Shown: in pieces, positions 31,701-62,800 of the stretch
Position numbering within the stretch: the first letter of the stretch is position 1
How the letters are laid out: every line of letters begins with the position of its first letter
Assembly: GCA_025642075.2 (NCBI GenBank)
Contig: JAODUO010000042.1
Location: 455,001-519,000, forward strand
Source: Ridgeia piscesae
Lineage: Eukaryota > Annelida > Polychaeta > Sabellida > Siboglinidae
DNA length: 64,000 bases
Direction: 5' to 3'
Notes under the pieces: model-generated
Told to the model about the DNA's origin: nothing
Databases searched by the model: none
Seen by the model: the letters and a program-made list of their open reading frames with translations, nothing else
Made by a program: the position numbers and the translations under genes

Positions 31701-34700
31701 CCAGCAGCTCAACCCCGTGTAGAAGTAGTCCACGAGCACGCAATGCTTCCAGCAGCTCAACCCCGGGGTAGAAGTAGTCCACGAGCACGCAATGCTTCCA
31801 GCAGCTCAACCCCGGTGTAGAAGTAGTCCACAGCACCAATGCTTCCAGCAGCTCAACCCCGGTGTAGAAGTAGTCCACGAGCACGCAATGCTTCCAGCAG
31901 CTCAACCCCGGTGTAGAAGTAGTCCACGAGCACGCAATGCTTCCAGCAGCTCAACCCCGGTGTAGAAGTAGTCCACGAGCACGCAATGCTTCCAGCAGCT
32001 CAACCCCGGTGTAGAAGTAGTCCACGAGCACACAATGCTTCCAGCAGCTCAACCCCGGTGTAGAAGTAGTCCACGAGCACACAATGCTTCCAGCAGCTCA
32101 ACCCCGGTGTAGAAGTAGTCCACGAGCACGCAATGCTTCCAGCAGCTCAACCCCGGTGTAGAAGTAGTCCACGAGCACGCAATGCTTCCAGCAGCTCAAC
32201 CCCGGGGTAGAAGTAGTCCACGAGCACGCAATGCTTCCAGCAGCTCAACCCCGGTGTAGAAGTAGTCCACGAGCACGCAATGCTTCCAGCAGCTCAACCC
32301 CGTGTAGAAGTAGTCCACGAGCACGCAATGCTTCCAGCAGCTCAACCCCGGTGTAGAAGTAGTCCACGAGCACGCAATGCTTCCAGCAGCTCAACCCCGG
32401 TGTAGAAGTAGTCCACGAGCACGCAATGCTTCCAGCAGCTCAACCCCGGGGTAGAAGTAGTCCACGAGCACGCAATGCTTCCAGCAGCTCAACCCCGGGG
32501 TAGAAGACCACGAGACGAAGCTTTCCCGCAGCTCAACCCCGGGGTAGAAGTAGTCCACGAGCACGCAATGCTTCCAGCAGCTCAACCCCGGTGTAGAAGT
32601 AGTCCACGAGCACGCAATGCTTCCAGCAGCTCAACCCCAGTGTAGAAGTAGTCCACGAGCACGCAATGCTTCCAGCAGCTCAACCCCGGTGTAGAAGTAG
32701 TCCACGAGCACGCAATGCTTCCAGCAGCTCAACCCCGGTGTAGAAGTAGTCCACGAGCACACAATGCTTCCAGCAGCTCAACCCCAGTGTAGAAGTAGTC
32801 CACGAGCACACAATGCTTCCAGCAGCTCAACCCCGGTGTAGAAGTAGTCCACGAGCACGCAATGCTTCCAGCAGCTCAACCCCGGTGTAGAAGTAGTCCA
32901 CGAGCACGCAATGCTTCCAGCAGCTCAACCCCGGGGTAGAAGTAGTCCCACACGCAATGCTTCCAGCAGCTCAACCCCGGGGTAGAAGTAGTCCACGAGC
33001 ACGCAATGCTTCCAGCAGCTCAACCCCGGGGTAGAAAGAAGCACGCAATGCTTCCAGCAGCTCAACCCCGGGGTAGAAGTAGTCCACGAGCACACAATGC
33101 TTCCAGCAGCTCAACCCCGGTGTAGAAGTAGTCCACGAGCACGCAATGCTTCCAGCAGCTCAACCCCGGTGTAGAAGTAGTCCACGAGCACGCAATGCTT
33201 CCAGCAGCTCAACCCCGGTGTAGAAGTAGTCCACGAGCACGCAATGCTTCCAGCAGCTCAACCCCGGTGTAGAAGTAGTCCACGAGCACGCAATGCTTCC
33301 AGCAGCTCAACCCCGGTGTAGAAGTAGTCCACGAGCACGCAATGCTTCCAGCAGCTCAACCCCGGGGTAGAAGTAGTCCACGAGCACGCAATGCTTCCAG
33401 CAGCTCAACCCCGGTGTAGAAGTAGTCCACGAGCACCAATGCTTCCAGCAGCTCAACCCCGGTGTAGAAGTAGTCCACGAGCACGCAATGCTTCCAGCAG
33501 CTCAACCCCAGTGTAGAAGTAGTCCACGAGCACGCAATGCTTCCAGCAGCTCAACCCCGGTGTAGAAGTAGTCCACGAGCACGCAATGCTTCCAGCAGCT
33601 CAACCCCGGTGTAGAAGTAGTCCACGAGCACGCAATGCTTCCAGCAGCTCAACCCCGTGTAGAAGTAGTCCACGAGCACGCAATGCTTCCAGCAGCTCAA
33701 CCCCGGTGTAGAAGTAGTCCACGAGCACCAATGCTTCCAGCAGCTCAACCCCGGGGTAGAAGTAGTCCACGAGCACCAATGCTTCCAGCAGCTCAACCCC
33801 GGTGTAGAAGTAGTCCACGAGCACGCAATGCTTCCAGCAGCTCAACCCCGGGGTAGAAGTAGTCCACGAGCACGCAATGCTTCCAGCAGCTCAACCCCGT
33901 GTAGAAGTAGTCCACGAGCACGCAATGCTTCCAGCAGCTCAACCCCGGGGTAGAAGTAGTCCACGAGCACGCAATGCTTCCAGCAGCTCAACCCCCCGGG
34001 GTAGAAGTAGTCCACGAGCACGCAATGCTTCCAGCAGCTCAACCCCGGTGTAGAAGTAGTCCACGAGCACCAATGCTTCCAGCAGCTCAACCCCGGTGTA
34101 GAAGTAGTCCACAGCACGCAATGCTTCCAGCAGCTCAACCCCGGTGTAGAAGTAGTCCACAGCACCAATGCTTCCAGCAGCTCAACCCCGGTGTAGAAGT
34201 AGTCCACGAGCACGCAATGCTTCCAGCAGCTCAACCCCGGGGTAGAAGTAGTCCACAGCACCAATGCTTCCAGCAGCTCAACCCCGGTGTAGAAGTAGTC
34301 CACGAGCACACAATGCTTCCAGCAGCTCAACCCCGGTGTAGAAGTAGTCCACGAGCACACAATGCTTCCAGCAGCTCAACCCCAGTGTAGAAGTAGTCCA
34401 CGAGCACGCAATGCTTCCAGCAGCTCAACCCCGGTGTAGAAGTAGTCCACGAGCACGCAATGCTTCCAGCAGCTCAACCCCGGTGTAGAAGTAGTCCACG
34501 AGCACACAATGCTTCCAGCAGCTCAACCCCGGTGTAGAAGTAGTCCACGGACGCAATGCTTCCAGCAGCTCAACCCCGGTGTAGAAGTAGTCCACGAGCA
34601 CGCAATGCTTCCAGCAGCTCAACCCCGGGGTAGAAGTAGTCCACGAGCACGCAATGCTTCCAGCAGCTCAACCCCGGGGTAGAAGTAGTCCACGAGCACC

Positions 34701-37700
34701 AATGCTTCCAGCAGCTCAACCCCGGGGTAGAAGTAGTCCACGAGCACGCAATGCTTCCAGCAGCTCAACCCCGTGTAGAAGTAGTCCACGAGCACGCAAT
34801 GCTTCCAGCAGCTCAACCCCGGGGTAGAAGTAGTCCACACACGAATGCTTCCAGCAGCTCAACCCCGGGGTAGAAGTAGTCCACGAGCACCAATGCTTCC
34901 AGCAGCTCAACCCCGGGGTAGAAGTAGTCCACGGGACCCAAAGCTTCCAGCAGTCAACCCCGGGGTAGAAGTAGTCCACGAGCACCAATGCTTCCAGCAG
35001 CTCAACCCCGGGGTAGAAGTAGTCCACGAGCACGCAATGCTTCCAGCAGCTCAACCCCGGTGTAGAAGTAGTCCACGAGCACGCAATGCTTCCAGCAGCT
35101 CAACCCCGGTGTAGAAGTAGTCCACGAGCACGCAATGCTTCCAGCAGCTCAACCCCGGTGTAGAAGTAGTCCACGAGCACGCAATGCTTCCAGCAGCTCA
35201 ACCCCGTGTAGAAGTAGTCCACGAGCACGCAATGCTTCCAGCAGCTCAACCCCGGGGTAGAAGTAGTCCACGAGCACCAATGCTTCCAGCAGCTCAACCC
35301 CGTGTAGAAGTAGTCCACGAGCACCAATGCTTCCAGCAGCTCAACCCCGGTGTAGAAGTAGTCCACGAGCACGCAATGCTTCCAGCAGCTCAACCCCGGG
35401 GTAGAAGTAGTCCACGAGCACCAATGCTTCCAGCAGCTCAACCCCGTGTAGAAGTAGTCCACGAGCACCAATGCTTCCAGCAGCTCAACCCCGGTGTAGA
35501 AGTAGTCCACGAGCACCAATGCTTCCAGCAGCTCAACCCCGGTGTAGAAGTAGTCCACGAGCACCAATGCTTCCAGCAGCTCAACCCCGGTGTAGAAGTA
35601 GTCCACGAGCACGCAATGCTTCCAGCAGCTCAACCCCGGGGTAGAAGTAGTCCACGAGCACCAATGCTTCCAGCAGCTCAACCCCGTGTAGAAGTAGTCC
35701 ACGAGCACCAATGCTTCCAGCAGCTCAACCCCGGTGTAGAAGTAGTCCACGAGCACGCAATGCTTCCAGCAGCTCAACCCCGGGGTAGAAGTAGTCCACG
35801 AGCACCAATGCTTCCAGCAGCTCAACCCCGTGTAGAAGTAGTCCACGAGCACCAATGCTTCCAGCAGCTCAACCCCGGTGTAGAAGTAGTCCACGAGCAC
35901 GCAATGCTTCCAGCAGCTCAACCCCGGGGTAGAAGTAGTCCACGAGCACCAATGCTTCCAGCAGCTCAACCCCGGGGTAGAAGTAGTCCACGAGCACACA
36001 ATGCTTCCAGCAGCTCAACCCCAGTGTAGAAGTAGTCCACGAGCACACAATGCTTCCAGCAGCTCAACCCCAGTGTAGAAGTAGTCCACGAGCACGCAAT
36101 GCTTCCAGCAGCTCAACCCCGGTGTAGAAGTAGTCCACGAGCACGCAATGCTTCCAGCAGCTCAACCCCGGTGTAGAAGTAGTCCACGAGCACGCAATGC
36201 TTCCAGCAGCTCAACCCCGGTGTAGAAGTAGTCCACGAGCACGCAATGCTTCCAGCAGCTCAACCCCGGGGTAGAAGTAGTCCACGAGCACGCAATGCTT
36301 CCAGCAGCTCAACCCCGGTGTAGAAGTAGTCCACGAGCACGCAATGCTTCCAGCAGCTCAACCCCGGTGTAGAAGTAGTCCACGAGCACGCAATGCTTCC
36401 AGCAGCTCAACCCCGGTGTAGAAGTAGTCCACGAGCACGCAATGCTTCCAGCAGCTCAACCCCGGTGTAGAAGTAGTCCACGAGCACGAATGCTTCCAGC
36501 AGCTCAACCCCGGTGTAGAAGTAGTCCACGAGCACGCAATGCTTCCAGCAGCTCAACCCCGTGTAGAAGTAGTCCACGAGCACGCAATGCTTCCAGCAGC
36601 TCAACCCCGGTGTAGAAGTAGTCCACGAGCACGCAATGCTTCCAGCAGCTCAACCCCGGTGTAGAAGTAGTCCACGAGCACGCAATGCTTCCAGCAGCTC
36701 AACCCCGGTGTAGAAGTAGTCCACGAGCACGCAATGCTTCCAGCAGCTCAACCCCGGTGTAGAAGTAGTCCACAGCACCAATGCTTCCAGCAGCTCAACC
36801 CCGGGGTAGAAGTAGTCCCCAGCACGCAATGCTTCCAGCAGCTCAACCCCGGTGTAGAAGTAGTCCACGAGCACGCAATGCTTCCAGCAGCTCAACCCCG
36901 GTGTAGAAGTAGTCCACGAGCACGCAATGCTTCCAGCAGCTCAACCCCGGTGTAGAAGTAGTCCACGAGCACGCAATGCTTCCAGCAGCTCAACCCCGGT
37001 GTAGAAGTAGTCCACAGCACGCAATGCTTCCAGCAGCTCAACCCCAGTGTAGAAGTAGTCCACGAGCACCAATGCTTCCAGCAGCTCAACCCCGTGTAGA
37101 AGTAGTCCCCGAGCACCAATGCTTCCAGCAGCTCAACCCCGGTGTAGAAGTAGTCCACGAGCACACAATGCTTCCAGCAGCTCAACCCCAGTGTAGAAGT
37201 AGTCCACGAGCACACAATGCTTCCAGCAGCTCAACCCCAGTGTAGAAGTAGTCCACGAGCACACAATGCTTCCAGCAGCTCAACCCCAGTGTAGAAGTAG
37301 TCCACGGAGCAATGCTTCCAGCAGCTCAACCCCGTGTAGAAGTAGTCCACGAGCACACAATGCTTCCAGCAGCTCAACCCCGGTGTAGAAGTAGTCCACG
37401 AGCACACAATGCTTCCAGCAGCTCAACCCCGGGGTAGAAGTAGTCCACGAGCACCAATGCTTCCAGCAGCTCAACCCCAGTGTAGAAGTAGTCCACGAGC
37501 ACGCAATGCTTCCAGCAGCTCAACCCCGGTGTAGAAGTAGTCCACGAGCACGCAATGCTTCCAGCAGCTCAACCCCAGTGTAGAAGTAGTCCACGAGCAC
37601 GCAATGCTTCCAGCAGCTCAACCCCAGTGTAGAAGTAGTCCACGAGCACGCAATGCTTCCAGCAGCTCAACCCCAGTGTAGAAGTAGTCCACGAGCACAC

Positions 37701-40700
37701 AATGCTTCCAGCAGCTCAACCCCAGTGTAGAAGTAGTCCACGAGCACACAATGCTTCCAGCAGCTCAACCCCAGTGTAGAAGTAGTCCACGAGCACACAA
37801 TGCTTCCAGCAGCTCAACCCCAGTGTAGAAGTAGTCCACGAGCACACAATGCTTCCAGCAGCTCAACCCCGTGTAGAAGTAGTCCACGAGCACACAATGC
37901 TTCCAGCAGCTCAACCCCGTGTAGAAGTAGTCCACGAGCACCAATGCTTCCAGCAGCTCAACCCCGTGTAGAAGTAGTCCACGAGCACACAATGCTTCCA
38001 GCAGCTCAACCCCGTGTAGAAGTAGTCCACGAGCACACAATGCTTCCAGCAGCTCAACCCCGGTGTAGAAGTAGTCCACGAGCACGCAATGCTTCCAGCA
38101 GCTCAACCCCAGTGTAGAAGTAGTCCACGAGCACGCAATGCTTCCAGCAGCTCAACCCCGTGTAGAAGTAGTCCACGAGCACACAATGCTTCCAGCAGCT
38201 CAACCCCGTGTAGAAGTAGTCCACGAGCACGCAATGCTTCCAGCAGCTCAACCCCGGTGTAGAAGTAGTCCACGAGCACCAATGCTTCCAGCAGCTCAAC
38301 CCCGGGGTAGAAGTAGTCCACGAGCACCAATGCTTCCAGCAGCTCAACCCCGGTGTAGAAGTAGTCCACGAGCACCAATGCTTCCAGCAGCTCAACCCCG
38401 GGGTAGAAGTAGTCCACGAGCACCAATGCTTCCAGCAGCTCAACCCCGGTGTAGAAGTAGTCCACAGCACCAATGCTTCCAGCAGCTCAACCCCGGTGTA
38501 GAAGTAGTCCACGAGCACACAATGCTTCCAGCAGCTCAACCCCGGTGTAGAAGTAGTCCACGAGCACACAATGCTTCCAGCAGCTCAACCCCGGTGTAGA
38601 AGTAGTCCACGAGCACACAATGCTTCCAGCAGCTCAACCCCGGTGTAGAAGTAGTCCACGAGCACGCAATGCTTCCAGCAGCTCAACCCCGGTGTAGAAG
38701 TAGTCCACGAGCACGCAATGCTTCCAGCAGCTCAACCCCGGTGTAGAAGTAGTCCACGAGCACGCAATGCTTCCAGCAGCTCAACCCCGGTGTAGAAGTA
38801 GTCCACGAGCACGCAATGCTTCCAGCAGCTCAACCCCGGTGTAGAAGTAGTCCACGAGCACGCAATGCTTCCAGCAGCTCAACCCCGGTGTAGAAGTAGT
38901 CCACGAGCACGCAATGCTTCCAGCAGCTCAACCCCGGTGTAGAAGTAGTCCACGAGCACGCAATGCTTCCAGCAGCTCAACCCCGGTGTAGAAGTAGTCC
39001 ACGAGCACGCAATGCTTCCAGCAGCTCAACCCCGGTGTAGAAGTAGTCCACGAGCACGCAATGCTTCCAGCAGCTCAACCCCGTGTAGAAGTAGTCCACG
39101 AGCACGCAATGCTTCCAGCAGCTCAACCCCGGGGTAGAAGTAGTCCACGAGCACCAATGCTTCCAGCAGCTCAACCCCGTGTAGAAGTAGTCCACGAGCA
39201 CGCAATGCTTCCAGCAGCTCAACCCCGGGGTAGAAGTAGTCCACGAGCACGCAATGCTTCCAGCAGCTCAACCCCGGGGTAGAAGTAGTCCACGAGCACG
39301 CAATGCTTCCAGCAGCTCAACCCCGTGTAGAAGTAGTCCACGAGCACGCAATGCTTCCAGCAGCTCAACCCCGTGTAGAAGTAGTCCACGAGCACGCAAT
39401 GCTTCCAGCAGCTCAACCCCGGGGTAGAAGTAGTCCACGAGCACGCAATGCTTCCAGCAGCTCAACCCCGGTGTAGAAGTAGTCCACGAGCACGCAATGC
39501 TTCCAGCAGCTCAACCCCGGGGTAGAAGTAGTCCACGAGCACGCAATGCTTCCAGCAGCTCAACCCCGAGTAGAAGTAGTCCACGAGCACGCAATGCTTC
39601 CAGCAGCTCAACCCCGGTGTAGAAGTAGTCCACGAGCACGCAATGCTTCCAGCAGCTCAACCCCGGTGTAGAAGTAGTCCACGAGCACGCAATGCTTCCA
39701 GCAGCTCAACCCCGGTGTAGAAGTAGTCCACGAGCACCAATGCTTCCAGCAGCTCAACCCCGGTGTAGAAGTAGTCCACGAGCACGCAATGCTTCCAGCA
39801 GCTCAACCCCGTGTAGAAGTAGTCCACGAGCACGCAATGCTTCCAGCAGCTCAACCCCGGTGTAGAAGTAGTCCACGAGCACGCAATGCTTCCAGCAGCT
39901 CAACCCCGGTGTAGAAGTAGTCCACAGCACCAATGCTTCCAGCAGCTCAACCCCGGTGTAGAAGTAGTCCACGAGCACCAATGCTTCCAGCAGCTCAACC
40001 CCGGTGTAGAAGTAGTCCACGAGCACCAATGCTTCCAGCAGCTCAACCCCGGTGTAGAAGTAGTCCACGAGCACCAATGCTTCCAGCAGCTCAACCCCGG
40101 GGTAGAAGTAGTCCACGAGCACGCAATGCTTCCAGCAGCTCAACCCCGTGTAGAAGTAGTCCACGAGCACGCAATGCTTCCAGCAGCTCAACCCCGGTGT
40201 AGAAGTAGTCCACGAGCACGCAATGCTTCCAGCAGCTCAACCCCGGTGTAGAAGTAGTCCACGAGCACGCAATGCTTCCAGCAGCTCAACCCCGGTGTAG
40301 AAGTAGTCCACGAGCACGCAATGCTTCCAGCAGCTCAACCCCGGGGTAGAAGTAGTCCACGAGCACCAATGCTTCCAGCAGCTCAACCCCGTGTAGAAGT
40401 AGTCCACGAGCACCAATGCTTCCAGCAGCTCAACCCCGGTGTAGAAGTAGTCCACGAGCACCAATGCTTCCAGCAGCTCAACCCCGGGGTAGAAGTAGTC
40501 CACGAGCACCAATGCTTCCAGCAGCTCAACCCCGTGTAGAAGTAGTCCACGAGCACGCAATGCTTCCAGCAGCTCAACCCCGGTGTAGAAGTAGTCCACG
40601 AGCACCAATGCTTCCAGCAGCTCAACCCCGGGGTAGAAGTAGTCCACGAGCACCAATGCTTCCAGCAGCTCAACCCCGTGTAGAAGTAGTCCACGAGCAC

Positions 40701-43700
40701 CAATGCTTCCAGCAGCTCAACCCCGGGGTAGAAGTAGTCCACGAGCACCAATGCTTCCAGCAGCTCAACCCCGTGTAGAAGTAGTCCACGAGCACGCAAT
40801 GCTTCCAGCAGCTCAACCCCGGTGTAGAAGTAGTCCACGAGCACACAATGCTTCCAGCAGCTCAACCCCGGTGTAGAAGTAGTCCACGAGCACACAATGC
40901 TTCCAGCAGCTCAACCCCGGTGTAGAAGTAGTCCACGAGCACGCAATGCTTCCAGCAGCTCAACCCCGGTGTAGAAGTAGTCCACGAGCACACAATGCTT
41001 CCAGCAGCTCAACCCCGGTGTAGAAGTTGTCCATCATTACCTTCATGTAGCTGCCCTCAAGTTCTTCTGTCAGCTGCGTGACAACACGGTACGACAGACC
41101 ATGCTCTTGCTGGCCAGCAACACAGCCTGTGTACACCTGGAAGTTCCAGGTATACCCAGTGCTACTCTCACAGAGTGACCACACCTTCACTCCCCACTTG
41201 GTGGGCTTTGGTGGCAGGTAGTGTCAGAATGCCAACCTTCCCTTGAATTTCACCATTGACTCATCAATGGTGACATGTTCGTCTGGAATGTAGACATCCT
41301 TGAAAGCTCTGACGAGATGGTCGATGTACAACCGTAGCTTCCACAGGTCGTCCGGCGTGGCAGGCTGCACGGTGTTATCTTGCAGGTGGAAATATCGCCA
41401 TATTGCATCAAAACGATCTCGAGACATCACCTGTGAGAATCGAGTTTCGTACAACCACTTTATCTTTCTCCAGTAGCTGTGTCTATGAGGCAGCCGCAAA
41501 AACCTAAATCGATAACGTCATTCCGATGAACGCTTTCACCACTGGCACGGTGACCGGGTCCCATCGAGGGACCGACGCGGGTTGTGGGTTGGCAGCTCGT
41601 TGCTGATCGGCGTAGCAGTTGGTTTCTTCCACCAATCTCTCCCACATAACATCATCAAAGTAGAAGTCGAAGTAGTCGATAGCTCTCGACTCGGGTGGGT
41701 GCTGAATTTGCGAGCCTGGAATCAGTCGGAACACCAGTTCGCGCACTGAGCGAAAATTTGCACTGTTTTCAATCCAGGCCGCATCGAATCCACCGAAGTC
41801 CGACAAATCGTCGTCGAACATGGCATTGACAAGCATGTCACGGCCCACCACTCGATCGATGGGATTTTCTGCCTCCCTTGGGCCGTCTGAATTGAGTACA
41901 GTGTCATTATCATCGTCAAATACATCGTCAAAATCACTTCCATCGCTAACATCATTCTCCGCCATCTTTTCTTTGTCTCAGAAATTTGGAAACTTTGCAC
42001 GGGGTGCTCACTTAGCTCGCCAATTAACCAATCAGCAGCTTTGAGTTGGGCTTCCACACTGCCATTCAATGAAAGCCAAGATATTGGTCTATCTATATGT
42101 GAACTTTCCAATAGGACTGCGATATGCTAATAGCCGGGATATCTCCCACAATGACGAACTACGACTAGAATCGTATTCCGGATAAAAAGGGTAACTACGA
42201 CTAGAATCGTATTCCGGATAAAATGGGTTAACTCTTTACTGCGCAGAACGTCCAAAACCACCCAACCCCTCGTACGCACAGACCGTCCAAAACCGCCCAG
42301 TAAACTCACAGTTCGGGGGCCTTTCGTTTACCGCGATCACATCCTTCTTTTACATTAACCAGCCAGCTGAAACTGCTGATCTAAGCTCTATGTAGGTCAC
42401 GGAAACATGTAGTGTTGCCATCTTGTGAAAAATTGATTTCGTTTGCGAATTAAGTGAGTTTATTTGGAAGGATATTGAAGTGCGTTCGTCTAGTTAACCT
42501 CCGACATCATGCGGCATTTGGCGGATATTACTGAGATCATTTCTCGACGATTTCGAGTTGGATATCGATGTTTGCAACATGAATAATGTCGACAGCGATC
42601 ACGGAGACCCTGTTATCGTCCATCTACATTGTTTGTGAGACTTTTCGTTGTTGAGATACGAAGAAGATCACCCATCGGCGGCATGTTCATTTCGCCGATA
42701 TGCAGCCATTTTGTTGATCGGATCACTGTCTGAACTTCGTTTGGTTTATTTATTTTAGGATATTTTATTAATATGCACTATGGTCATATTGCTTCTGATA
42801 CGGGAGCATCTACTTGTGAAAGGAGTCTGCTATCCTTTGTTATTCGTGTTGATTTTACATACGAAAAGAACATTCCATTCCGCAATATGATCGGTAAAGG
42901 ATAGTCATTTTGTAAATTATGGCATGATTTTTGTCTTCTGTCGCATCGGCGTTGTTTACAAAAGCAATTATAATTTGAAAATAACTGTCAAAATTGGATA
43001 AATGTTTTACTAGGATACAATTAACATACATGGCTACATTAGTTCCAGAGGATCACTGTTGTGTGTTCTAAAAAAATTATATGTAGCATGATGAAGTTGC
43101 TTATTTATTTTGTCATCATAATTGTTAAAGTTTGCTTCAAGATCTGAAATGTAATTGATTGCAACACATACATTTTAATAACACATTTTATTCACACAAT
43201 CATTCCATGTACAGTGCAATTAATTTCATATATTTTCATACATCGGTTGTCGAGTTATTATAATTTTAATGCAAGCAACATGCAGCGTAATTCACAGATG
43301 GCTGCCATCTTAAAATTGTCTGCCCACAGCAGGGTGTAAAATAAGAAGGCTGTCTACCCAGTAAAGAGTTAAGCCTATTACCAACATCCTATGATGATTT
43401 TGAATTTTTTTTTTGAAGTGCCTAGTTATAGAGGAGGAAACTAAGGTTTTATTCAATAGCTTCTGGAAATTGAACTTGCAACTGGCTGTTGAACCGGCAT
43501 CTGTTGATGCTAGAAATGTGGCAATATTTAGTTACACATCATAATCTATACCGCCAAAATTTATGAAATAATGTATTAAATTCAGGACAGTCTTCAATTG
43601 CAGTAACACGAAACAAAGTCACTACTCACAAACACAAAGCGAGCTGCATCCCGTACACACTGGACAATCGTATCTGAATCTGTAGCAGGACAGTCTTGTT

Positions 43701-46700
43701 CTGGGAGGAACTCATCACTAGGCTTGTCCACATACACCTTTGGCAGTTGTGACATAAACGTTGTCTCACCTGATTGTCTGCCAAAACACATCCATTTGTG
43801 CATTACTGTGCTTTCAATTGCTGTTCAACCTGCATTCAACAGTTGAATGCCAGTTGAAGGTGAAGATGAAGTTGAAAGCATGTTGAAAGCGGGGACTTAG
43901 ACTGGAAAAGTAGTTGAACGCAAGTTGAAAGCAGGCACTTAGACTTCAACAGGGGTTGAATGCAAGAGATGAACGCAAGTTGAAAACGAACTGTAATTTG
44001 AGTCCCTGGCCTGCCCCTCTGGAGATTGGACTTTAGGTTACTTAAGTCAGCAGTTTTAGCCCACGTATTTAACCTCTCAAACCCAACCTTTGCCACTGAG
44101 CCATTGTGAATTGAGCTCTGTATATAGGTTGGCCTGTTGGCTTTAAGCAGGAAATTTGAAAACACCACCATTTTGTGAGGTAGAGTGCCAGTGAGAAGTA
44201 CGTAGCAGTCATGTAGACTGGCCACTGCAACACTGACAAGTTTGGAACTAAAACTATCACATACATAACACAAAGAACTGAAGCTGGATGGATTTATCAC
44301 ACTCTGGGACCTTAGCAACTGGCTAGCTGTATATCTGAGACACAATTACTATACCCAACTACTTTGGCACTGGTCAATATAAAACATACTTAATAACATA
44401 ACAAATTATACAGTTAAAGAACAGGTTGTACCCCCTTTGCAATTTTTTTAATTATGTGGAAAATATAACTTTCGTGCAGACCCCGAGAGAAAACTAGAAC
44501 CTGTGAAGTGATTATCAACATAAAGTGTTGAGTACAACTGTTTTAAGACCTGCTCTACAAATTGTCAATAGCAAATGATGTATCTATGGCCATATTCTAT
44601 TCTATGTCATATGCATGTCTTGATTTTGACCTATGACAACATCGTTGTTCTTGTTGTGTAGTGTCCCACATCCCACAAGGTTGTGACAATCTGAATGGGA
44701 CTGAGTGTCGACTTACATGGCCTGTATAGATTCACCTGCCACTTCAACAAACAACAACTGACCCCGCAGTTTCTCAGCCGCTGACCTGAACGCCTTCCTC
44801 TCTGAAACACAGACATTTGTAATGTTAATATGCAGCTCTACTTGTATAAGTTGCTTACTTGTACTTGTAGAGCGAGTGCCTAGAAAGCGAAATTTCTAAC
44901 AATCATCAACATTTTACTTCATACATGTCAGCTTATTGAGAATTTATCTGATCCAGCAATATAATAACTTTATACACTAAAATCAAAAGTAGACCTCTGT
45001 TCATAAGTGTTTATAATACTCGATCAAATATATGATGTAGCTTAGATATAAAAAATAATAATACAAGTAAAATATATAAATAAATACATACATTTAATTT
45101 GTGCATTGTTGTACAAAGCTCAACAAGAGACTAAAAGTAAATTAAAAGTGATATTGATGTAAATTATATTATGTATCAATGTAGTAAAGATTAAGTATCT
45201 GTATATATAAACAACTGCATAGTTATGTACACATGTATTAGTTAATTAATAAATAGTATTTGACTACAATAATGCATTATTAATTTCAATAAAAAAATCA
45301 ATTACATGTGTGGAATAACGACAAAAGTATAGAATTATGATGACTAAACATTAAAAGCAAGTTTACAGGAACGTGTTTTAAGGTGAGATTTAAATGTGTC
45401 CATGCACGGTGTCAGTTGCAGAACATCCATCAACACATTCCTGCACACAAGAAGGACCAATGGTCGTACCTCTCAAGGTATAAACAATATAAACAAACAC
45501 GGAATTAAAGTGTCACCAAATAAAAAAATTATATAATTGGTGACACTTTAATTCTATTTAATTAGATTGGTTAAAATAGATGTTCATCTAAATCAGTACA
45601 AATAAGAGGAAATACTGATTAGCTTCCACAAAGCAAAAGCATTGCAATGCAACATAACCTGAGAGAGCAATTTTTCTGGAATGAAGCAAAAACTAATCAT
45701 TTATGCCATAATTTTATAATAATCATGCAATTGTCTCACTAACACTAAATCAAAGAAATGTTTCAGTGACTAACTTTATAGAAGCAGACATAACATAGTT
45801 TTGAATAGTACCACAGGTAGTACCAGTATCATTGTTCTTTGCAAACAGTCCTTGGATGGAGACATTTGTGAAGTTGTTAACATTTTCCCAAAACAGCACT
45901 AACTCCTCAACGGTATTTAGTTTCACAGGTGCATCAGCCAGGAATCTACAACAAAATATTCAAAAACTGCAAAACATCGACATCTAACACATAACTACCC
46001 CCGGTATTTATTGTAATTTTTTTATTCTTACTAGTGGCACTAGTGCAGTTTCAAAACAATTATGAAAATCATAAATACCTGACTCATGTATGTTTTGGCT
46101 TTAATGGCTGTGATTTCAGAAGTGGTGCAAATGCATATTACATAATAATGAAATCATACTAAAATTAAAATTGAGATTTTACTTTAATAGACACCACCAT
46201 TCATGTGACACGTGTTTAGTCTTAGGTCACACAAACTGCTTGTTCTTTCAGTTTATTTTGGTTATTTTTACTACAGCGAGGGTTACCTGTACAGCCAGCG
46301 TTAGTGTGTCCGTGTACCATGTAAGGCTATTGAAGTTTGCCCAGTGATTATGTAATATAGTGCATGAACTGGGGTGATGCTGTAGCCCAGGGTCAGTAAA
46401 TATCATTAGAGTGAGGCTAGACAAGTAGGAGTGTTGAGTTTAACAAGTATTAATTATATAGAATGTGAAGCACTTTTGTATTAGAGTGTAACTGGAATGA
46501 AGGTAGAGGTCTATGTGATGAATAATGTCAGTGTATCAGAATGTTGCTGTATTGAAGAGAGAAGTTATTACAATGGAGTCAGCATAAGCAAGTATCATAT
46601 AATGGATGCGAGGTATTCTTCTTCCAGGTGCCATGTCTGTTCCAGGTGTTAGTGATCATGGCCCTCCAAGCCACACGGTCGTTGTTTGTTCTCAGCAGTT

Positions 46701-49700
46701 CTGTTGCACTCGTTCCACACCATGTTGACAGACTATCAGTTATTTTTATATTTCGGCATTGTTTTGATGTTTCCCTTTAATCATTCCAGTTGTTACAAGA
46801 TTTTCTACCTTTTTCTTTCTCATGATATGCCCTTTAGATCGTGCCTTTCATGTTCTATTTTTGTAATCATCTTTATTTTGTAGTAGGCTGAAGTTGGGCT
46901 ATGAAACTCTCATCATTCTTCTTAAAAAAAAAAAACATTTCAGTTGCCTCAATTGTGTTTTGTGTTTATTTAATGTCCAGGATTCACAAACATACTTATA
47001 GTAATGTTATGTAAGCTTGATGTAACATTGTAATATTCGTTTCCTTACCTCAAATGATATGTGAAATATAAGGTGGTTTAAAAAACATTATTACATAGGC
47101 AGTCGCAGACTAATATTCCATAGATTCACTCTGGTAATGGCGGTGAAGGCAAAGTTACACAAATTAGTTGGTTATAACCTAACACACATAAATTAATATG
47201 TACTGATTTTAAATAAATATTTTAAAATTAATATAATGAATAAATATATTATATATATATTGATTTAAAATTTAATATAAATTTAAAATAAAATAATAAT
47301 ATATCAATTGTGATGTGTTCTAACAAAATGAGTTGTATGTCAAAAAAAGAATTACATTACATTGTACACTGCGGAGAAGACCGTTAATGGACTTTATTTT
47401 CACAGTTTCTGTGTACTGTAACCTGTTCATGTTCAGCAGAATATTAAAATTATATGGGACTTCTTTAGCTTAAATTGCACTTTCCTTAAGTTAGAAATAT
47501 CACATGTATTATTTAAAAAAAGGACACTACTGACTGGTCTTGATACAATGTCCATGTTCAAAGATAATTACTAGATATCATCAATGCTAAAATACAATTT
47601 TCGCTGGACTGTTTCACATCTAAAATAGGGGGCGGGCCTCTATTAGGAGTGTGTCTCTATTAGGGATAATACGGTATATCATGTTAACTGTTTACTGAAA
47701 TTATTACAGCATTTAGCAATGTTTTCTAGAAGCGACCTGATTGATCACGCTTGTTTACAGTTAGCAGTGTGCACTGCGCCTGCGGTCATAGCTCTAAGCC
47801 AATCGGTGGCCCCGCTCCTAAAGAGGGCATTCTGGGCTTTCCCGTAGTACCAAATATGTCCGCCATGCATTGAGGGAAACCCTGAAGAATGCGTCTCGAA
47901 CAAGTGCAATTTATCGGTTTTGTTTTTATGAAATTCATGCGTGAAACGTTACATAGCGTTGGTAAAACAGCTATAAAATGTACTAAATAATGATATAAAT
48001 GAGAAATAAGCATTGCCAATTGACAGAAAAGATATCAAAGCATACTTTGGTCACAAAAAGTCAAAATTGTCGGAAATCATTGTTGCATGTTTATACGGTG
48101 TTTTCTCGAAATCAAGTTCGCCGACATACAGGCGAGGATGAGGGAGACAATGAGGAGGAGGTTTCATCACTAAAAGGAGGCAACATTCAAAACAGTTTTC
48201 TGTGTGATACTTACAGCTTGACGAATGAGTAGATTTCTTTAGCACCTCGTACTCCATTGTAGTTGTAGGACTTCTTTCCTGTTCGGAAGACCCTGATGGT
48301 TGGGAAGGAGGTGATGTTTTGGGAGGCACAGAGATCCCTTTCATCGTGACATTCCACCGTGGCGAGAGGGAAGAGGGAATCAGCTGCCAGCAGACGGGAC
48401 GCCTCCAGGAAGGAGAGCAGGGACGCCTTGCTACGCACATCAACTACAACAGGTAGAGAGCAGGGACCCCTTTTTACGCACATCAACTACAACAGGTAGA
48501 GAGCAGGGACGCCTTGCTACGCACATCAACTACAACAGGTAGAGAGCAGGGATGCCTTGCTACGCACATCAACTACAACAGGTAGAGAGCAGGGATGCCT
48601 TGCTACGCACATCAACTACAACAGGTAGAGAGCAGGGATGCCTTGCTACGCACATCAACTACAACAGGTAGAGAGCAGGGACTCCTTGCTACGCACATCA
48701 ACTACAACAGGTAGAGAGCAGGGATGCCTTGCTACGCACATCAACTACAACAGGTAGAGAGCAGGGACCCCTTGCTATGCACATCAACTACAACAGGTAG
48801 AGAGCAGGGATGCCTTGCTACGCACATCAACTACAACAGGTAGAGAGCAGGGACGCCTTGCTACGCACATCAACTACAACAGGTAGAGAGCAGGGATGCC
48901 TTGCTACGCACATCAACTACAACAGGTAGAGAGCAGGGACGCCTTGCTACGCACATCAACTACAACAGGTAGAGAGCAGGGACGCCTTGCTACGCACATC
49001 AACTACAACAGGTAGAGAGCAGGGACCCTTGCTACACACATCAACTACAACAGGTAGAGAGCAGGGACGCCTTGCTACACACATCAACTACAACAGGTAG
49101 AGAGCAGGGACGCCTTGCTACACACATCAACTACAACAGGTAGAGAGCAGGGACGCCTTGCTACACACATCAACTACAACAGGTAGAGAGCAGGGACACC
49201 TTGCTGCACACATCAACTACAAAGGTAGAGAGCAGGGACGCCTTGCTACACACATCAACTACAAAGGTAGAGAGCAGGGACACCTTGCTACACACATCAA
49301 CTACAACAGGTAGAGAGCAGGGACGCCTTGCTACACACATCAACTACAACAGGTAGAGAGCAGGGACGCCTTGCTACACACATCAACTACAACAGGTAGA
49401 GAGCAGGGACGCCTTGCTACACACATCAACTACAACAGGTAGAGAGCAGGGACGCCTTGCTACACACATCAACTACAACAGGTAGAGAGCAGGGACGCCT
49501 TGCTACACACATCAACTACAAAGGTAGAGAGCAGGGACCCTTGCTACACACATCAACTACAACAGGTAGAGAGCAGGGACGCCTTGCTACACACATCAAC
49601 TACAACAGGTAGAGAGCAGGGACGCCTTGCTACACACATCAACTACAACAGGTAGAGAGCAGGGACGCCTTGCTACACACATCAACTACAACAGGTAGAG

Positions 49701-52700
49701 AGCAGGGACGCCTTGCTACACACATCAACTACAAAGGTAGAGAGCAGGGACGCCTTGCTACACACATCAACTACAACAGGTAGAGAGCAGGGACGCCTTG
49801 CTACACACATCAACTACAACAGGTAGAGAGCAGGGACACCTTGCTACACACATCAACTACAAAGGTAGAGAGCAGGGACGCCTTGCTACACACATCAACT
49901 ACAACAGGTAGAGAGCAGGGACGCCTTGCTACACACATCAACTACAAAGGTAGAGAGCAGGGACACCTTGCTACACACATCAACTACAACAGGTAGAGAG
50001 CAGGGACGCCTTGCTACACACATCAACTACAACAGGTAGAGAGCAGGGACGCCTTGCTACACACATCAACTACAAAGGTAGAGAGCAGGGACCCTTGCTA
50101 CACACATCAACTACAACAGGTAGAGAGCAGGGACGCCTTGCTACACACATCAACTACAACAGGTAGAGAGCAGGGACGACCTTCTACACAGACATCTAAC
50201 TCACAAAGGTAGAGAGCAGGGACCCTTGCTACACACATCAACTACAACAGGTAGAGAGCAGGGACGCCTTGCTACACACATCAACTACAACAGGTAGAGA
50301 GCAGGGACGCCTTGCTACACACATCAACTACAACAGGTAGAGAGCAGGGACCCTTGCTGCACACATCAACTACAAAGGTAGAGAGCAGGGACCCCTTGCT
50401 GCACACATCAACTACAAAGGTAGAGAGCAGGGACCCCTTGCTGCACACATCAACTACAACAGGTAGAGAGCAGGGACGCCTTGCTACACCATCAACTACA
50501 ACAGGTAGAGAGCAGGGACCCTTGCTACACACATCAACTACAACAGGTAGAGAGCAGGGACCCCTTGCTGCACACATCAACTACAACAGGTAGAGAGCAG
50601 GGACCCCTTGCTACACACATCAACTACAACAGGTAGAGAGCAGGGACCCCTTGCTACACACATCAACTACAACAGGTAGAGAGCAGGGACGCCTTGCTAC
50701 ACACATCAACTACAACAGGTAGAGAGCAGGGACCCCTTGCTGCACACATCAACTACAAAGGTAGAGAGTAGGGACCCCTTGCTGCACACATCAACTACAA
50801 CAGGTAGAGAGCAGGGACGCCTTGCTACACACATCAACTACAAAGGTAGAGAGCAGGGACCCCTTGCTGCACACATCAACTACAAAGGTAGAGAGCAGGG
50901 ACGCCTTGCTACACACATCAACTACAACAGGTAGAGAGCAGGGACCCCTTGCTGCACACATCAACTACAAAGGTAGAGAGTAGGGACCCCTTGCTGCACA
51001 CATCAACTACAACAGGTAGAGAGCAGGGACCCCTTGCTGCACACATCAACTACAACAGGTAGAGAGCAGGGACGCCTTGCTACACACATCAACTACAAAG
51101 GTAGAGAGCAGGGACCCTTGCTGCACACATCAACTACAAAGGTAGAGAGTAGGGACCCCTTGCTGCACACATCAACTACAAAGGTAGAGAGCAGGGACGC
51201 CTTGCTACGCACATCAACTACAACAGGTAGAGAGCAGGGACCCCTTGCTGCACACATCAACTACAAAGGTAGAGAGTAGGGACCCCTTGCTGCACACATC
51301 AACTACAAAGGTAGAGAGTAGGGACCCCTTGCTGCACACATCAACTACAAAGGTAGAGAGTAGGGACCCCTTGCTGCACTCATCAACTACAACAGGTAGA
51401 GAGCAGGGACGCCTTGCTACGCACATCAACTACAACAGGTAGAGAGCAGGGACCCCTTGCTGCACACATCAACTACAAAGGTAGAGAGCAAGGACCCCTT
51501 GCTACACATCAACTACAACAGGTAGAGAGCAGGGACGCCTTGCTACGCACATCAACTACAACAGGTAGAGACAGGGACCCCTTGCTACACACATCAACTA
51601 CAACAGGTAGAGAGCAGGGACCCCTTGCTGCACACATCAACTACAAAGGTAGAGAGCAGGGACCCCTTGCTGCACACATCAACTACAAAGGTAGAGAGCA
51701 GGGACGCCTTGCTACACACATCAACTACAAAGGTAGAGAGCAGGGACCCCTTGCTGCACATCAACTACAACAGGTAGAGAGCAGGGACCCCTTCTGCACA
51801 CATCAACTACAAAGGTAGAGAGCAGGGACCCTTGCTACACACATCAACTACAACAGGTAGAGAGCAGGGACCCCTTGCTGCACATCAACTACAACAGGTA
51901 GAGAGCAGGGACGCCTTGCTACACACATCAACTACAACAGGTAGAGAGCAGGGACACCTTGCTGCACACATCAACTACAAAGGTAGAGAGTAGGGACCCC
52001 TTGCTGCACACATCAACTACAAAGATAGAGAGTAGGGACCCCTTGCTGCACTTATCAACTACAACAGGTAGAGATTAGGGACCCTTGCTGCACACATCAA
52101 CTACAAAGGTAGAGAGCAGGGACCCCTTGCTGCACACATCAACTACAAAGATAGAGAGCAGGGACCCCTTGCTGCACACATCAACTACAAAGGTAGAGAG
52201 TAGGGACCCCTTGCTGCACACATCAACTACAACAGGTAGAGAGCAGGGACGCCTTGCTACGCACATCAACTACAACAGATAGAGAGCAGGGACCCCTTGC
52301 TGCACACATCAACTACAAAGGTAGAGAGTAAGGACCCCTTGCTGCACACATCAACTACAAAGGTAGAGAGTAGGGACCCCTTGCTGCACACATCAACTAC
52401 AAAGATAGAGAGTAGGGACCCCTTGCTGCACTCATCAACTACAACAGGTAGAGAGCAGGGACGCCTGGCTACGCACATCAACTACAACAGGTAGAGAGCA
52501 GGGACCCCTTTCTGCACACATCAACTACAACAGGTAGAGAGCAAGGACCCCTTGCTACTCACATCAACTACAACAGGTAGAGAGCAGGGACCCCTTGCTA
52601 CGCACATCAACTACAACAGGTAGAGAACAGGGACCCCTTTCTGCACACATCAACTACAAAGATAGAGTAGGGACCCCTTGCTGCACTCATCAACTACAAC

Positions 52701-55700
52701 AGGTAGAGAGCAGGGACGCCTGGCTACGCACATCAACTACAACAGGTAGAGAGCAGGGACCCCTTTCTGCACACATCAACTACAACAGGTAGAGAGCAAG
52801 GACCCCTTGCTACTCACATCAACTACAACAGGTAGAGAGCAGGGACCCCTTGCTACGCACATCAACTACAACAGGTAGAGAGCAGGGACCCCTTGCTACG
52901 CACATCAACTACAACAGGTAGAGAGCAGGGACCCCTTTCTGCACACATCAACTACAAAGATAGAGTAGGGACCACTTGCTGCACTCATCAACTACAACAC
53001 ATGACACCAGTAACAGGTACATGACACCAGTAACGGATACATGACACAAGTAACTGGCACAACACAAGAAACTGACACATGTATCTGACACCTGACACCA
53101 GTAACTGACCCACACATGACACCTGTGACTGACACGTAAGACCAGTAAATGACAAACAACGCCAGTATCCGATACTACATCATTAACCGACACGACACTG
53201 GTAACTAATATATAACACCAGTAGCCAACATATGACACAAGTAGATGATGCATGACACCACCAACCGACATATGATACCACTAACCAACACAAGAAACTA
53301 GTAACCAACACAACACCAGTAACCAGTATTTGACACCGTTAAGTGACACACGACACAAGTAATTGACATGACACCAGTACCTGACACTTGACACAAGTAA
53401 CCAACACAACACCAGTAACTGACATGACACCAGTAACCGACACAGCATAACACCAGTAACCAACACAAGAAATCAATAACCAATAAAACACCATCAACTA
53501 AATGTAGCCGTGGGTATACTCACAGACCAAGTAGAACATGACAACGAGACCCTCAGTGCTCTGTGTCTGTGCAGTAAACGTTTCCTCCGTCAGTCGCTGG
53601 ACATGTGTGTGGTCAAGACTGCGACCGTGGATCACACGCACAGTCTTTGACACATCATCATCCTCGTCCAGGAGTGGGTCTTTGTAGTCGTCATCATCAT
53701 CATCGTAATCGTCATCGACATCAACGTAATCTATCATACCAACACGACAACATTAATCACTATTATGTATTCACACATTAATTATTAGTGATTAAATTTT
53801 TTTTCACAGGTAATCAAACATGGACGTAGGACATAACTGTGAGCAATGCACCTTTGCATACAGATAGTATACGACATATATCTAAGTTCACTCTGACAGA
53901 CCACCACACCTGACTCATCCTTGGTATCTGTCATTTTGGCCCTTGCTCGCCTCCTAGGTAGCAGTGTTGTCCACAGTTTTCTGTCAAGAAATCTTTCTGG
54001 CATTTCAGCCAGTGGCATCAATTCCCATTCCGTCTAGTCAAACGTGAAACAACCATTTCTGTAATTCTTATTATCGTCATGTTTTGATGTTCAGAAGTGG
54101 AAAGTTTATGACCATATTTGTAATGGGGTGTTTCTGATCTGTAAGTACATAACATTTAATTTGCCACAAACAGACCTAATACAACTGTAATGGTCGCTTA
54201 ATTACTTTAATGAAATAAAAATTCAACATTATTTTTCCCAGTTTTTAACACAAATGCAAAACTGACAATTATATAATCAACACAATGATTCACAGATTCA
54301 ACCAGAGCGGACAAAATTGTCAAGAGACACAAATGCAATCTTCAGGTGGTATTCTGCCATGAGTTGGAGAATATAACATTCATCATTATTTGACAACTCA
54401 CCTTGTCTCTTAATTTTAAGCTAATCATTGACAAACCAACATTTTCCTTAACTCCGACCTTTTTCACATCAAATTTAGTCCTGAAAGAGCAAATAAACCA
54501 GCGCTTCAGTATCAAGATTTCTTATGTTTATTTCATACATTAGCAGATTGTAATCATCCATTCTGTTTCAAACCAGGTAATCCTTGACACAACCAAGAAC
54601 ACAGATGTGTTTAAAACTATTAAGTAACATTTACATTCCAAGAGAGAAACATTTAATATTAGTTAACCTTCATTGTTATTACAATAATGAAATATTACCA
54701 AATTATACTGTTACTTTAATGTAGTAATTAATGTACTACTAATGTGATAATATAGCATCTCACAATGATTGTTCTCTCTGTTGCTGCTAGAGTATTATGA
54801 TAACCATATAATGAAAATTATGCTAAACTAGTTACCACCCATTCATCGCACAAACCCAAGCACACCAGATGTAACTGATACACTTTCATCTTACATTTCT
54901 GCATTTGGCAAATGTCTCATGTCCCCGTAATGTGAATGTTGAGTCACAGTGGCGTCCTCTGGAGAATAGCTCATCAGAGGAAGCAACCTTGTTGCATATC
55001 AATAACTCCACATAACTACCTAGTTCTTAATGCATCCCTATCTGGTAGATCAATCACTGTGGTTAAAGAAAATTAATGAACATAAAAAGCAGCAACTGAA
55101 CCCTGCACTTGTGTGGCGATACTGCTAGGCTGTTCCCTAATTTAGCACATTAACATACAGATAACAAAATGATGGTGTTAAGTATAACAATATGACTCAC
55201 TTGTCCACAATTAAAAATCCAATCAAGCCTCGATATTTTGGTACGAACGATTGTATTTCCATTTTTAGATCATCAACACGGTCACTGCTGGCAATGAAGG
55301 CGACTGTGTGCATGTCGTTCTGCTCATACAGGGTGTGATTACTGCCCGGTATTGTCAACTAGTAACATAACAAAATAACATGGCAATCAACCAACCAACA
55401 AACAAAATGGCTGATTTGTATATAACACTACACTGTATTGTTAACTGAAGAGTTATTCTTTGGGAACTAGTGAACTTGAAAGCGTTTCATTGTCACACTG
55501 ACAAAACCATAGTATCTGTGATTAAATGAGCAAGATTTGAGCAATATTCATACAACACAATACAACAGTAAGGGAATATGGGTCTGATGGGAATCCATAA
55601 AAAACTAAATGATCAACTACTACCCACAGCATATTATTATCAAAGACAAATGCTTTAGTAATTTCTTGTAAACAATAAAAAATGCATTTTTACTTTTCTC

Positions 55701-56477
55701 ATTTGGCTTTCTATTTGTTAAGAAACATAACATATCTAGTTTGACATATTCGCTTGTTGATGTAAATGCACTATTAATGTTCAACTAAATCACCTACTAA
55801 ATTACTTCCTGATCAAAAAGCAGTGACAAGATGGCACATTAAACCTGACACAATGTAGAATATTTAATCTAGAAGTTATTCTGTTCACAGATTTTCAAAT
55901 TACATGATCAAATGATCATTGCCAATGATTTAAAAAATAACTCATTCCCTAAACTATTCATATATTACAGACTTGAAATATATAACGTCATAGTAATTTT
56001 TGTATTATACATTTATATACTTTACTCAATATCAAAATTATAGTTCACATTATGCAAGTCATTGAGGATTCTACATAATATAGTGCATCAGCATCAATCA
56101 TCTCACAGAATCAACACAGTCCCACACAACCAACATAAAACACCAAGACATCTACACAACCCGATAGAACCAGCACAATCCCACACAACCAACATAAAAC
56201 ACTAAGACATCTACACAACCCCGCAGAACCAACTCACTTACCACGGGTTCGATATCAATGTTCTGCAGGAACCGTCGAATAGAAAGTAGGTCCCACTCAT
56301 CTCTGTACTTTGTCACACTGCATGGTTTCTTATCACTTTTTGCCTCTTTGCAGTGCAACACCCATATTTCGACATCGTCATGTGGCTTATGTCCACTGCA
56401 AGAAGGTAATATTAAAGTTATACTGTGTCTCTGATTATTGTATGCAGTTGGAACTGGATGAGGCAGAGTCAAGGGTA

Positions 56478-59800: not shown

Positions 59801-62800
59801 ATCAATTGAAACGTACAACATTTCAACCTATCATCTACAGGTCATGGTCACGTTTGTACTGGTGTCACATGTGTTGGCTCAGGTTTTGGCAGGGTAATTT
59901 GGTTGTAGATGGCAGACAGGTCCCTAGTCTATGTTCATGGTAGGGGCTCTTTGTTTGACATACAGAGCCTCCTTCACTTTTCTCTTGTATCAGTTGGATT
60001 CTCAGGTCTGTACTTTGGTGTTATCCATGGACATTGAGTGTCCTGTGGCCCAGCAACGGTCTCCTACTCCTGTTGGTTTGTCCAGGTTTGTGTCTTCTTT
60101 GAACCTCTGGCTGAGTGGTCTCATAGTATCACCAATGTATGTGTGGCTGCTGTCGTTGTCACATGTAATGTTGTAGATGGTTCCACATTGGTGTTCTTTC
60201 TGTGTTTTGTTCTACCATCGAAGGGAGGGTGTTAGCTGGCTTATGGTACATGTGTATGTTGTGTGACTTATAAATCTGGCCAAGTTTTCTGGTAACCCTG
60301 CAACGTATGGTAGTCCCAAAATAGTGAATATATTCTTCATGGCTCCAAGATATGGTTATGTTATAAGAAATTCACTTATTTTGAAGCAAACTGTAGAAAC
60401 GTACAACATTTCGATCTGTAGGTGACCAGTTGAAACATTGTGTTTCTACAAATTTTGCTTCAAAGTAAGTTAATTTCTTACAACAGGCCCAACATAGGTC
60501 GGCTTTCTTGGGTTCGATGGTGAACTGCTGTTGATATGTTCAGTGAACTCTTCCATGTCGTGTTCATGAGGTATGGTGAATGTGTCATCCACATATCATA
60601 GCCACAATGATGGGGGGTCAGTGCTGTAGAGATGGCTAATTTATTAAATTGTTCCATGTAGCAATTAGTTACTAGGGGAGATATGGGTGACCCCATAGCT
60701 GCACCATGTGTTTGCTGGTAATATCCACCTTCATATGAAGTAGGTGGTATTCAGACAGAAGTCGAGGAGCTCAACTATCTGTGGGATGGTCATTTCCGTG
60801 CAGCTGGTTAGGGTGTTATCTTCTTGTAGTCTCTCTGTGATGACTTCCAGTGCCTTGTCCACAGGGACACTGGTGAAAAGTGCTATGACATCATACAACA
60901 CCAGTTTCCGAGCAGATGGTATTTCTAGACAGGTATTTCCTTGGTGTTTTTGATGCCGTGACAATTCTTTCCCACTAGGGGGTAAGGATGCTAGCCAGGT
61001 ATTTGGGTGCATTGTATGTGATACTGCCACAACTGGATACCATAGGCTTAAGGGATGCGTTGCTTTTGTACCTTAGGTGTCCCATACAATTTGGAGGTTC
61101 TTCTGAATCTATAGTATAGTATAGTATAGTACAGTTTGTCTGAGATGGATCCATTTCTCTTCCACTTCCTTAGGATGTTGATCAGTCTGTTTTTGTATGT
61201 ATATGTGGGGTCTTTGCTAAGTCTGGTGTATGTATTCGTATCGCCAACCATGTCAGTCATTTTCATTCTATATTCGGTAGTGTTCATTATTAACGTAGCT
61301 CTACCTTTGTTTGCAAGGAGTATGATGATCAAGTTCTTTTTCAGTGTCTGTAGAGCTACCCTCTCCCCCTTGCTGATATTAGATTTAAGGAGCTTAGATC
61401 GTTTGATGGTGCGTACAACCTCCCCTCAGAGTTCTTCTGCCACAGTCTCTGTCATGTATTTAGGAACTACTTTAGTACCGGCTATGATTTCTTCGACCAG
61501 GAGGATAGTCAGGGTAATGGCAAAGTATAGATCGTTCATCATCACTAATCTGCCTGGCGCTCAGGTTCATTACCCACCTGTTTGTCACTTCGTTCTTAGT
61601 TTGAGATTTGTTGTAAGTTTCTCGAAATTGTATTGTTTTTGTGACCTAGTTTCCTCGAATGTGTGCAACCGCAAGCAACTGTTATGCTTCCGCCATTTCG
61701 TCACTGTTCAAGATGGCTTCCACCTGTTGTTTATCCGTTGTTAGGGATTCGTTCAGTTTATCAATCATGTATATACACTGCCATAAGCTTACACCGAGAA
61801 GCTGTAATTCTGCTTTCTTTACAATGTGCTGCGCTCTTACGCCAGTTATGTTTGTGTTCAGTTTTATGCTTGTCGGAGTGATCTTATATCGAGAATCCAG
61901 CTGGCACAATAGCAAAGCGAAGGAGGCTATATACATATCTCAAACACCTGCCCGCCATCTACAACCAATTATCCCGCCAAAACCTGAGCCAACACACGTG
62001 ACACCAGTACGTGCGCAAGACCTGTAGATGATGGGTCGAAATGTGGTACGTTTCAAAAGATATGCTCCAGAGTAAGTTAATTTCTTATAATATAATTGTG
62101 TGCATCTATTGGCAATCCCATCCTCACGTGCCAGTGATAGCTGTTGCTGATTACATCAGTACCAGTCAGCAGTACCCATGGCTGATCCATTTGCAAAAAA
62201 TATGAATTTAAACTTGGTTGTCCTTAATTGCTAGTTCAACTCAGTTAACTCCCACACTTCGTGTAGAGGATCCACCAGGGCTAGTTTTGTATAACAAACA
62301 GCTCTGGTTGCGAGGATGGGCAATCCTTGTTTGAACACTTTTTTATGGCAATTCTTATTCAGACAATTTTTGATCAATTTTTAAGGGAAATATTTGTTTG
62401 GCAAAATCTCATTATAGCAATCACTAATCAGAATTCTTATTTGGACCATTCTTGTTGTTAGGACAAATCTTGTTGAAGCAGGTTTTTCAAAACAATTCTC
62501 TCTGCAGAACAACAACCATGTAAAACCTGTGTCAACCATAGGAGCCAATAGAATTCTACCTCACCATAACTTCCAGTTCCTTTGATTCTACTGTATACAA
62601 CATCTTGTTTCCCAACATTTGTCTGTTCAAGATATCTGAGATCACCTGAAGTCTTAATTATTGGCACTTCTTCCAGTAAGATGCTCCTGGAATCAAGTAA
62701 CAGCAGCACCACAGTGTAGCAGTGAGATTAAACATAGCAGCAATAGCATAGCAACAGTAACAGCTGTCAGAGTTCAAAAGGACTTTTGTGCTAACATCTT

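Follow-up and report, generated by a model that had tools for sequence, protein, structure and literature searches.

Background

Amphioxus genomes hold minisatellites that span exon-intron boundaries, known as mirages, with cases described in Adh3, the globins BflGb6 and BflGb9, troponin C and PGBD5; in the parts of those reports drawn on here, the arrays are unstable in length and regular splicing is reported to be undisturbed (PMC3087553, PMC3902484). In human, intron 7 of the factor VII gene (F7) carries 37-bp repeats that form an array of 5' splice sites, among which, according to the sections of the report consulted, only the most upstream, exon-proximal donor is normally used (PMC6627357), and internal tandem repeats at exon-intron boundaries have been described within segmental duplications from paralogue comparison, with an average of four 30-bp units in the portion of that survey used here (PMC2812944). 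Here we describe a boundary-spanning array in the annelid Ridgeia piscesae (Siboglinidae), lying in a 64,000-nucleotide stretch of contig JAODUO010000042.1 (assembly GCA_025642075.2, positions 455,001 to 519,000 of the forward strand; hereafter the window), where exact copies of a 3' splice site stand head to tail on the minus strand and the last of them opens an exon of what appears to be a TXNDC16-like gene. Our reading, to which we assign a probability of roughly 0.7, is that the locus is an expanded mirage minisatellite at this acceptor, that the last acceptor is used by way of exon definition, and that the array is nearly neutral.

A minisatellite built of 3' splice sites

Tandem Repeats Finder places on the minus strand, between 48,413 and 52,999 of the window, an array of period 43 with 107.9 copies, 94% matches and a score of 7561, in agreement with a preliminary description of this DNA that had put about 107 copies of a 3' splice site at 48,438-52,995. 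Exact TTGTAG/TTGAT acceptors (the slash marks the splice boundary) number 107, comprising 106 decoys and the exon start, and the first base after their AG runs from 52,991 down to 48,443. Splice signals are thus retained from copy to copy at 107 of 108 boundaries, the single broken one, near 50,200, reading TTTGTGAGTTAGATG. That the unit joins a 3' splice site to the edge of the exon at 48,215-48,443, as the same description had proposed, was borne out, so that the repeat crosses an exon-intron boundary, whose position is set by frame and domain; the proposed make-up of about nine intron and about 35 exon bases gave way to a better-fitting one of 12 bases from the intron (TACCTGTTGTAG) and 31 from the exon, with the intron-side edge of the array at about 52,992.

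48,444-52,991, minus strand: mirage array of 107 units; 106 decoy 3' splice sites are intact (their first exonic bases run from 52,991 to 48,486) and one is broken
50,154-50,241, minus strand: double unit of 88 nt holding the sole broken boundary, with a donor-like hexamer GTGAGT at 50,204

Between the first acceptor and the exon, the 107 units measure 43 bp (63 units), 42 bp (33), 41 bp (6), 40 bp (4) or 47 bp (1) and represent 41 distinct sequences. Runs of one unit type fill the interior, while the first unit and the last before the exon (types 0 and 40) each occur once: concerted evolution inside and divergence at the edges, as in mirages. Unit lengths of 40-47 bp, together with repeated blocks, suggest past exchange within the one assembly considered. 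Searched by BLAST at E <= 1, two consensus units found only an 11-base match elsewhere in the window. Donor-like GTGAGT hexamers occur three times within the array, at 50,204, 52,562 and 52,817, and pseudo-exons are conceivable.

A thioredoxin-like domain interrupted by the array

On either side of the array lie two exons whose joined reading encodes a thioredoxin-like domain, the end of the upstream exon at 53,524 meeting the exon at 48,443-48,215 in phase (T + TT GAT...) across a host intron of 5,080 nt (53,523-48,444). The thioredoxin profile PF00085 aligns across this exon-exon junction from profile position 2 to 102, and in a phmmer comparison with the PDB the two-exon domain aligned over the junction to ERdj5 and PDIA4.

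53,524-53,730, minus strand: upstream exon, with an acidic stretch and the start of the thioredoxin-like domain, ending in phase 1 at T/GTGAGT
53,518-53,523, minus strand: GTGAGT, the 5' splice site at which the host intron begins, with 53,523 as its first base
52,999-53,468, minus strand: older, degenerate minisatellite of about 20 bp in the same intron, upstream of the array
48,444-48,449, minus strand: acceptor TTGTAG, taken as authentic on the basis of frame and domain
48,215-48,443, minus strand: downstream exon of 229 nt, carrying the remainder of the thioredoxin-like domain; the unit's exonic portion corresponds to the first 31 nt of this exon
48,209-48,214, minus strand: 5' splice site GTAAGT of the downstream exon, proposed cross-exon partner of the true acceptor
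45,820-45,945, minus strand: next candidate exon, starting at 45,945 (TAG/ATTCCTGG); its end is a placeholder

Upstream, two of the ten further open reading frames (ORFs) scanned match PF24509 (TXNDC16_2nd) on the same strand and in collinear gene order, one at positions 3-40 (19.4 bits, E 0.0013) and the other at positions 74-118 (26.2 bits, E 9.7e-6), both under the curated cut-off of 27 bits, which is set for the whole domain; the other eight had no informative family match. On the strength of these matches and of PF00085, the earlier attribution to TXNDC16 is supported to the extent that TXNDC16-like seems a fair name for the host gene. Three of 64 candidate proteins from ENA match the upstream exon, sharing 82-99% identity with it across 35-47% of the two-exon query, and all three (P0001-P0003) continue at the protein level as FYLVCEYT, as if through the same donor; P0003 reads into a stretch similar to the minisatellite at 52,999-53,468.

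The 5' end of the upstream exon at 53,730 is a guess from TAG/ATTACG, with no in-phase join further upstream. A candidate exon at about 55,210-55,360 was rejected as its direct neighbour, having two spare bases at its end and no in-phase join to 53,730. Downstream, the frame from 45,945 follows on in phase from the donor at 48,214, and among the ORFs scanned this candidate exon found no family match. No known RNA family was detected in the window at gathering thresholds.

Origin and growth of the array

The array probably grew from the acceptor of the downstream exon, because the original intron end seems to survive at its distal edge and because similarity to the exon falls with distance. Outside the array, TACCTGTT occurs a single time in the window, both strands counted, at 53,019, just past the distal edge, where the intron reads TACCTGTT-ACTGGTGTCATG-TGTT-GTAG/TTGATG; the array unit equals this intron end minus the 16 bp between two TGTT repeats.

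52,992-53,019, minus strand: presumed original intron 3' end, TACCTGTT...TGTTGTAG, at the distal array edge

Compared with the first 31 exon bases, the four blocks closest to the exon average 0.95-0.97 identity and the three most distant 0.87-0.90, and unit-exon identity declines with distance (Spearman -0.51, over copies that are not independent). Taken together, an origin from the acceptor of the exon at 48,215-48,443 appears well supported. Deriving TACCTG from the exon (CTTCCTG) rather than from the intron would be the weaker account, the match being poorer than that to the intron at 53,019.

In the course of events that we propose, the 12 intron and 31 exon bases at the TXNDC16-like acceptor would have been duplicated first. 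Because the exon edge CCCTGCTCTC is rich in pyrimidines and TTGAT opens the exon, every added copy would resemble a compact 3' splice module of branch site, pyrimidine tract and AG, with a higher pyrimidine content than the presumed original acceptor. Expansion to about 107 copies could then have come about by unequal exchange or slippage.

That last figure may owe something to assembly, in which case the array would be real and 107 not the animal's true length, a possibility compatible with the reading of an expanded mirage. Published accounts, in the parts used here, describe mirages as length-unstable even somatically, with one amphioxus draft having mis-assembled a mirage (PMC3087553), and PGBD5 repeats that differ between two lancelet genome versions (PMC3902484). 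The 41 distinct units, a block of six to seven units repeated in the distal part of the array and the exon-ward gradient are nevertheless unlike simple collapse or stuttering, and we give a partial assembly effect a small chance.

One acceptor among 107

The decoys offer much of what the true site offers. Within the 20 bases before the YAG there are 14-16 pyrimidines in the 105 decoys after the first, 11 in the first (the presumed original) and 16 at the true site, in keeping with the preliminary description, which had given each copy a pyrimidine tract and an AG. From -20 to +6, 65 of the 106 decoys equal the true site; the core acceptor therefore cannot tell the true site from its decoys. 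Even the candidate branch site, which fits the branch consensus yUnAy, belongs to the repeat; in the last unit the branch A stands at index 3 and AGs at indices 15 and 41.

48,482-48,486, minus strand: candidate branch site TTGAT, lying one unit upstream of the true AG and at the exonic start of the last decoy

What follows each acceptor is a different matter. With the donor at 53,524 joined to each acceptor in turn, the frame stays open to the exon end in one case of 107, namely 48,443, and every one of the 106 decoy joins brings a premature stop, 228-4736 nt ahead of the exon's 3' junction. Premature stops so placed are expected to trigger nonsense-mediated decay. The exon measures 229 nt from the true acceptor, 272, 315 and 358 nt from the nearest decoys and 4777 nt from the farthest.

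We infer that splicing uses the last acceptor, at 48,443. Long introns flank the exon (5.1 kb on one side and, if the next exon begins at 45,945, about 2.3 kb on the other), and the exon is therefore probably recognised as a whole, with the donor at 48,214 pairing with the nearest upstream acceptor; the decoys have no exon body behind them. Where flanking introns are long, splice sites nearest across the exon are preferred, according to the part of the published analysis considered here (PMC9225289). The likeliest rule for site choice is pairing across the exon with the donor at 48,214. Any residual use of decoys would be cleared by nonsense-mediated decay, and the array would therefore be nearly neutral and free to grow.

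Several points weigh against this reading. The use of 48,443 is argued from frame and domain, and the 20 residues that define this start raise the PF00085 score by only 1.1 bits (35.5 vs 34.4), though they extend its coverage from half the profile to the whole. Relatives of the downstream exon numbered none among six candidates at E <= 0.001 in the homology search. The sequence around the acceptors is less uniform over wider spans: from -30 to +6 the true site is matched exactly by only three of the 106 decoys, and from -30 to +30 by none, with five within one mismatch. The unit directly before the true site alone reads GTAAAAAGG, and a local cue may therefore lie about 25-33 bases upstream of it. 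Finally, the portion of the splicing analysis drawn on above reports that competing pairs of 3' sites favour the upstream one overall, less so under exon definition (PMC9225289), and the overall preference would favour the decoys.

Such a preference lends some colour to the alternative that decoys are used at a real rate, their mis-spliced, stop-containing products being destroyed, so that copy number would act as a dimmer on the gene. Every one of the 106 intact decoys yields a stop, acceptors are intact at all but one boundary, and variant cells are fewest, among 43 circular windows, in the acceptor window of 11 columns (4 vs a mean of 59). By variant types, however, the same window ranks only sixth of 43, and no sound sign of selection emerges from copies that are non-independent; published mirages, moreover, are said in the passages used here to leave splicing undisturbed (PMC3087553, PMC3902484). 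We regard such use of the decoys as unlikely. Quite unlikely is the fuller form of the idea, a tunable splicing sink in which about a hundred functional acceptors would compete and lose transcripts to nonsense-mediated decay, repeat number setting expression and varying between or within individuals.

Other candidate explanations were set aside. An initial test for selection on the decoys, made on 104 of 107 units with the three around the broken copy dropped, gave an invariant run of 11 columns (permutation p 0.006); selection is not claimed, as with all 107 units the acceptor window ranks first of 43 by variant cells and sixth by variant types. An RNA hairpin hiding the decoys was rejected for the last three units, which fold with z +1.24, 186 of 200 shuffles being at least as stable. 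Recursive splicing was also rejected: the copies read AG/TTGATG, and the joint regenerates no donor.

Where the exon begins

A rival reading has the exon beginning elsewhere and the array simply lying in the intron. Fourteen AGs have their next base between 48,216 and 48,443, and four of the resulting starts are in frame and open: 48,443, 48,383, 48,251 and 48,245. The most plausible competitor, 48,383 (GGCAG/CTGATT), costs the profile only the 1.1 bits given above, but it drops 20 residues and leaves PF00085 covered from 52 to 102 only, whereas a start at 48,443 gives the full domain; the residues lost are ones that phmmer aligns to ERdj5 and PDIA4, and purines interrupt the tract before 48,383. 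Starts at 48,251 and 48,245 would remove nearly the whole exon. We judge the exon to start at 48,443 and see only a slim chance of another start.

That the array is a protein-coding repeat is almost certainly wrong, for although 42-bp units keep frame and stop-free stretches in the array reach 99 amino acids on the minus strand and 153 on the plus strand, 43-bp units shift frame, the junction GTAGTTGATG has TAG or TGA in two frames, and none of 106 decoy entries is open to the exon end, which refutes the idea for decoy entry with read-through to the exon.

Other repeats and elements in the window

The window holds a second array that seems to be built from coding DNA, at 31,187-41,033, whose 49-bp unit, in 203 copies, consists of sequence coding for a piggyBac-type transposase (PF13843, matched from the right flank). 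A transposase-like reading flanks it on the minus strand, at 40,960-41,977 and about 30,300-31,200 (the left flank judged by eye); with such a reading on either side, the array seems to have expanded within a transposase gene. A 63-bp unit containing CGTGTACGTGCACG is repeated 24 times at 14,875-16,359. At 56,107-56,233 a 59-bp tandem repeat of 2.2 copies starts a few bases into an intron, adjoining a donor-like GTAAGT (about 56,241) that belongs to a candidate TXNDC16-like exon. Reverse-transcriptase-like fragments, taken from the ORF list, lie at 60,478-61,425 on the minus strand and presumably resemble Penelope-type elements.

Significance and comparison with known systems

The locus offers a natural experiment in which 3' splice sites compete: 65 of 106 decoys equal the true acceptor from -20 to +6, what sets decoys apart from it is chiefly their position and the exon body that follows, and every mistaken choice yields a countable, stop-containing RNA. 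If it is true that only the last acceptor is used, this would argue for exon definition over first-AG or intron-proximity rules. The array also shows the extent to which a splice-site minisatellite can expand in a gene, and it bears on the proposal, made in the part of the amphioxus report drawn on here, that mirages seed new introns (PMC3087553).

By its anatomy, as read from the sequence, the array is a mirage. The preliminary description had presented such a unit at this copy number as unfamiliar; the novelty of the kind is not supported by the literature: amphioxus mirages (PMC3087553, PMC3902484) and the donor-side form in human F7 intron 7 (PMC6627357) are of the same kind, the latter a mirror image of the acceptor-side array described here. 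Human boundary minisatellites resemble it too, in that they alter gene structure and may create introns, as described in the portion used (PMC2812944). The BflGb6 mirage repeats an intron's 3' end together with the 5' part of exon 2, the same layout as here (PMC3087553). Unit sizes and copy numbers differ, as far as the compared parts of these reports give them: BflGb6 has units of 150-160 bp in six and three copies on its two haplotypes, BflGb9 a 157-bp duplicate, and PGBD5 two or seven copies of 60 bp and three or six of 108 bp (PMC3902484), against 43 bp and about 107 copies in Ridgeia. Adh3, known through citing papers and compared by unit size alone, has units of 10-72 bp. The hosts of the published mirages compared are cephalochordates. 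Although longer published arrays are possible beyond the open-licence literature, what is striking and apparently new at this locus is the high copy number, the near-complete set of decoys and the host gene; among the published mirages for which a copy number was seen, Adh3 aside, the array in Ridgeia exceeds them all.
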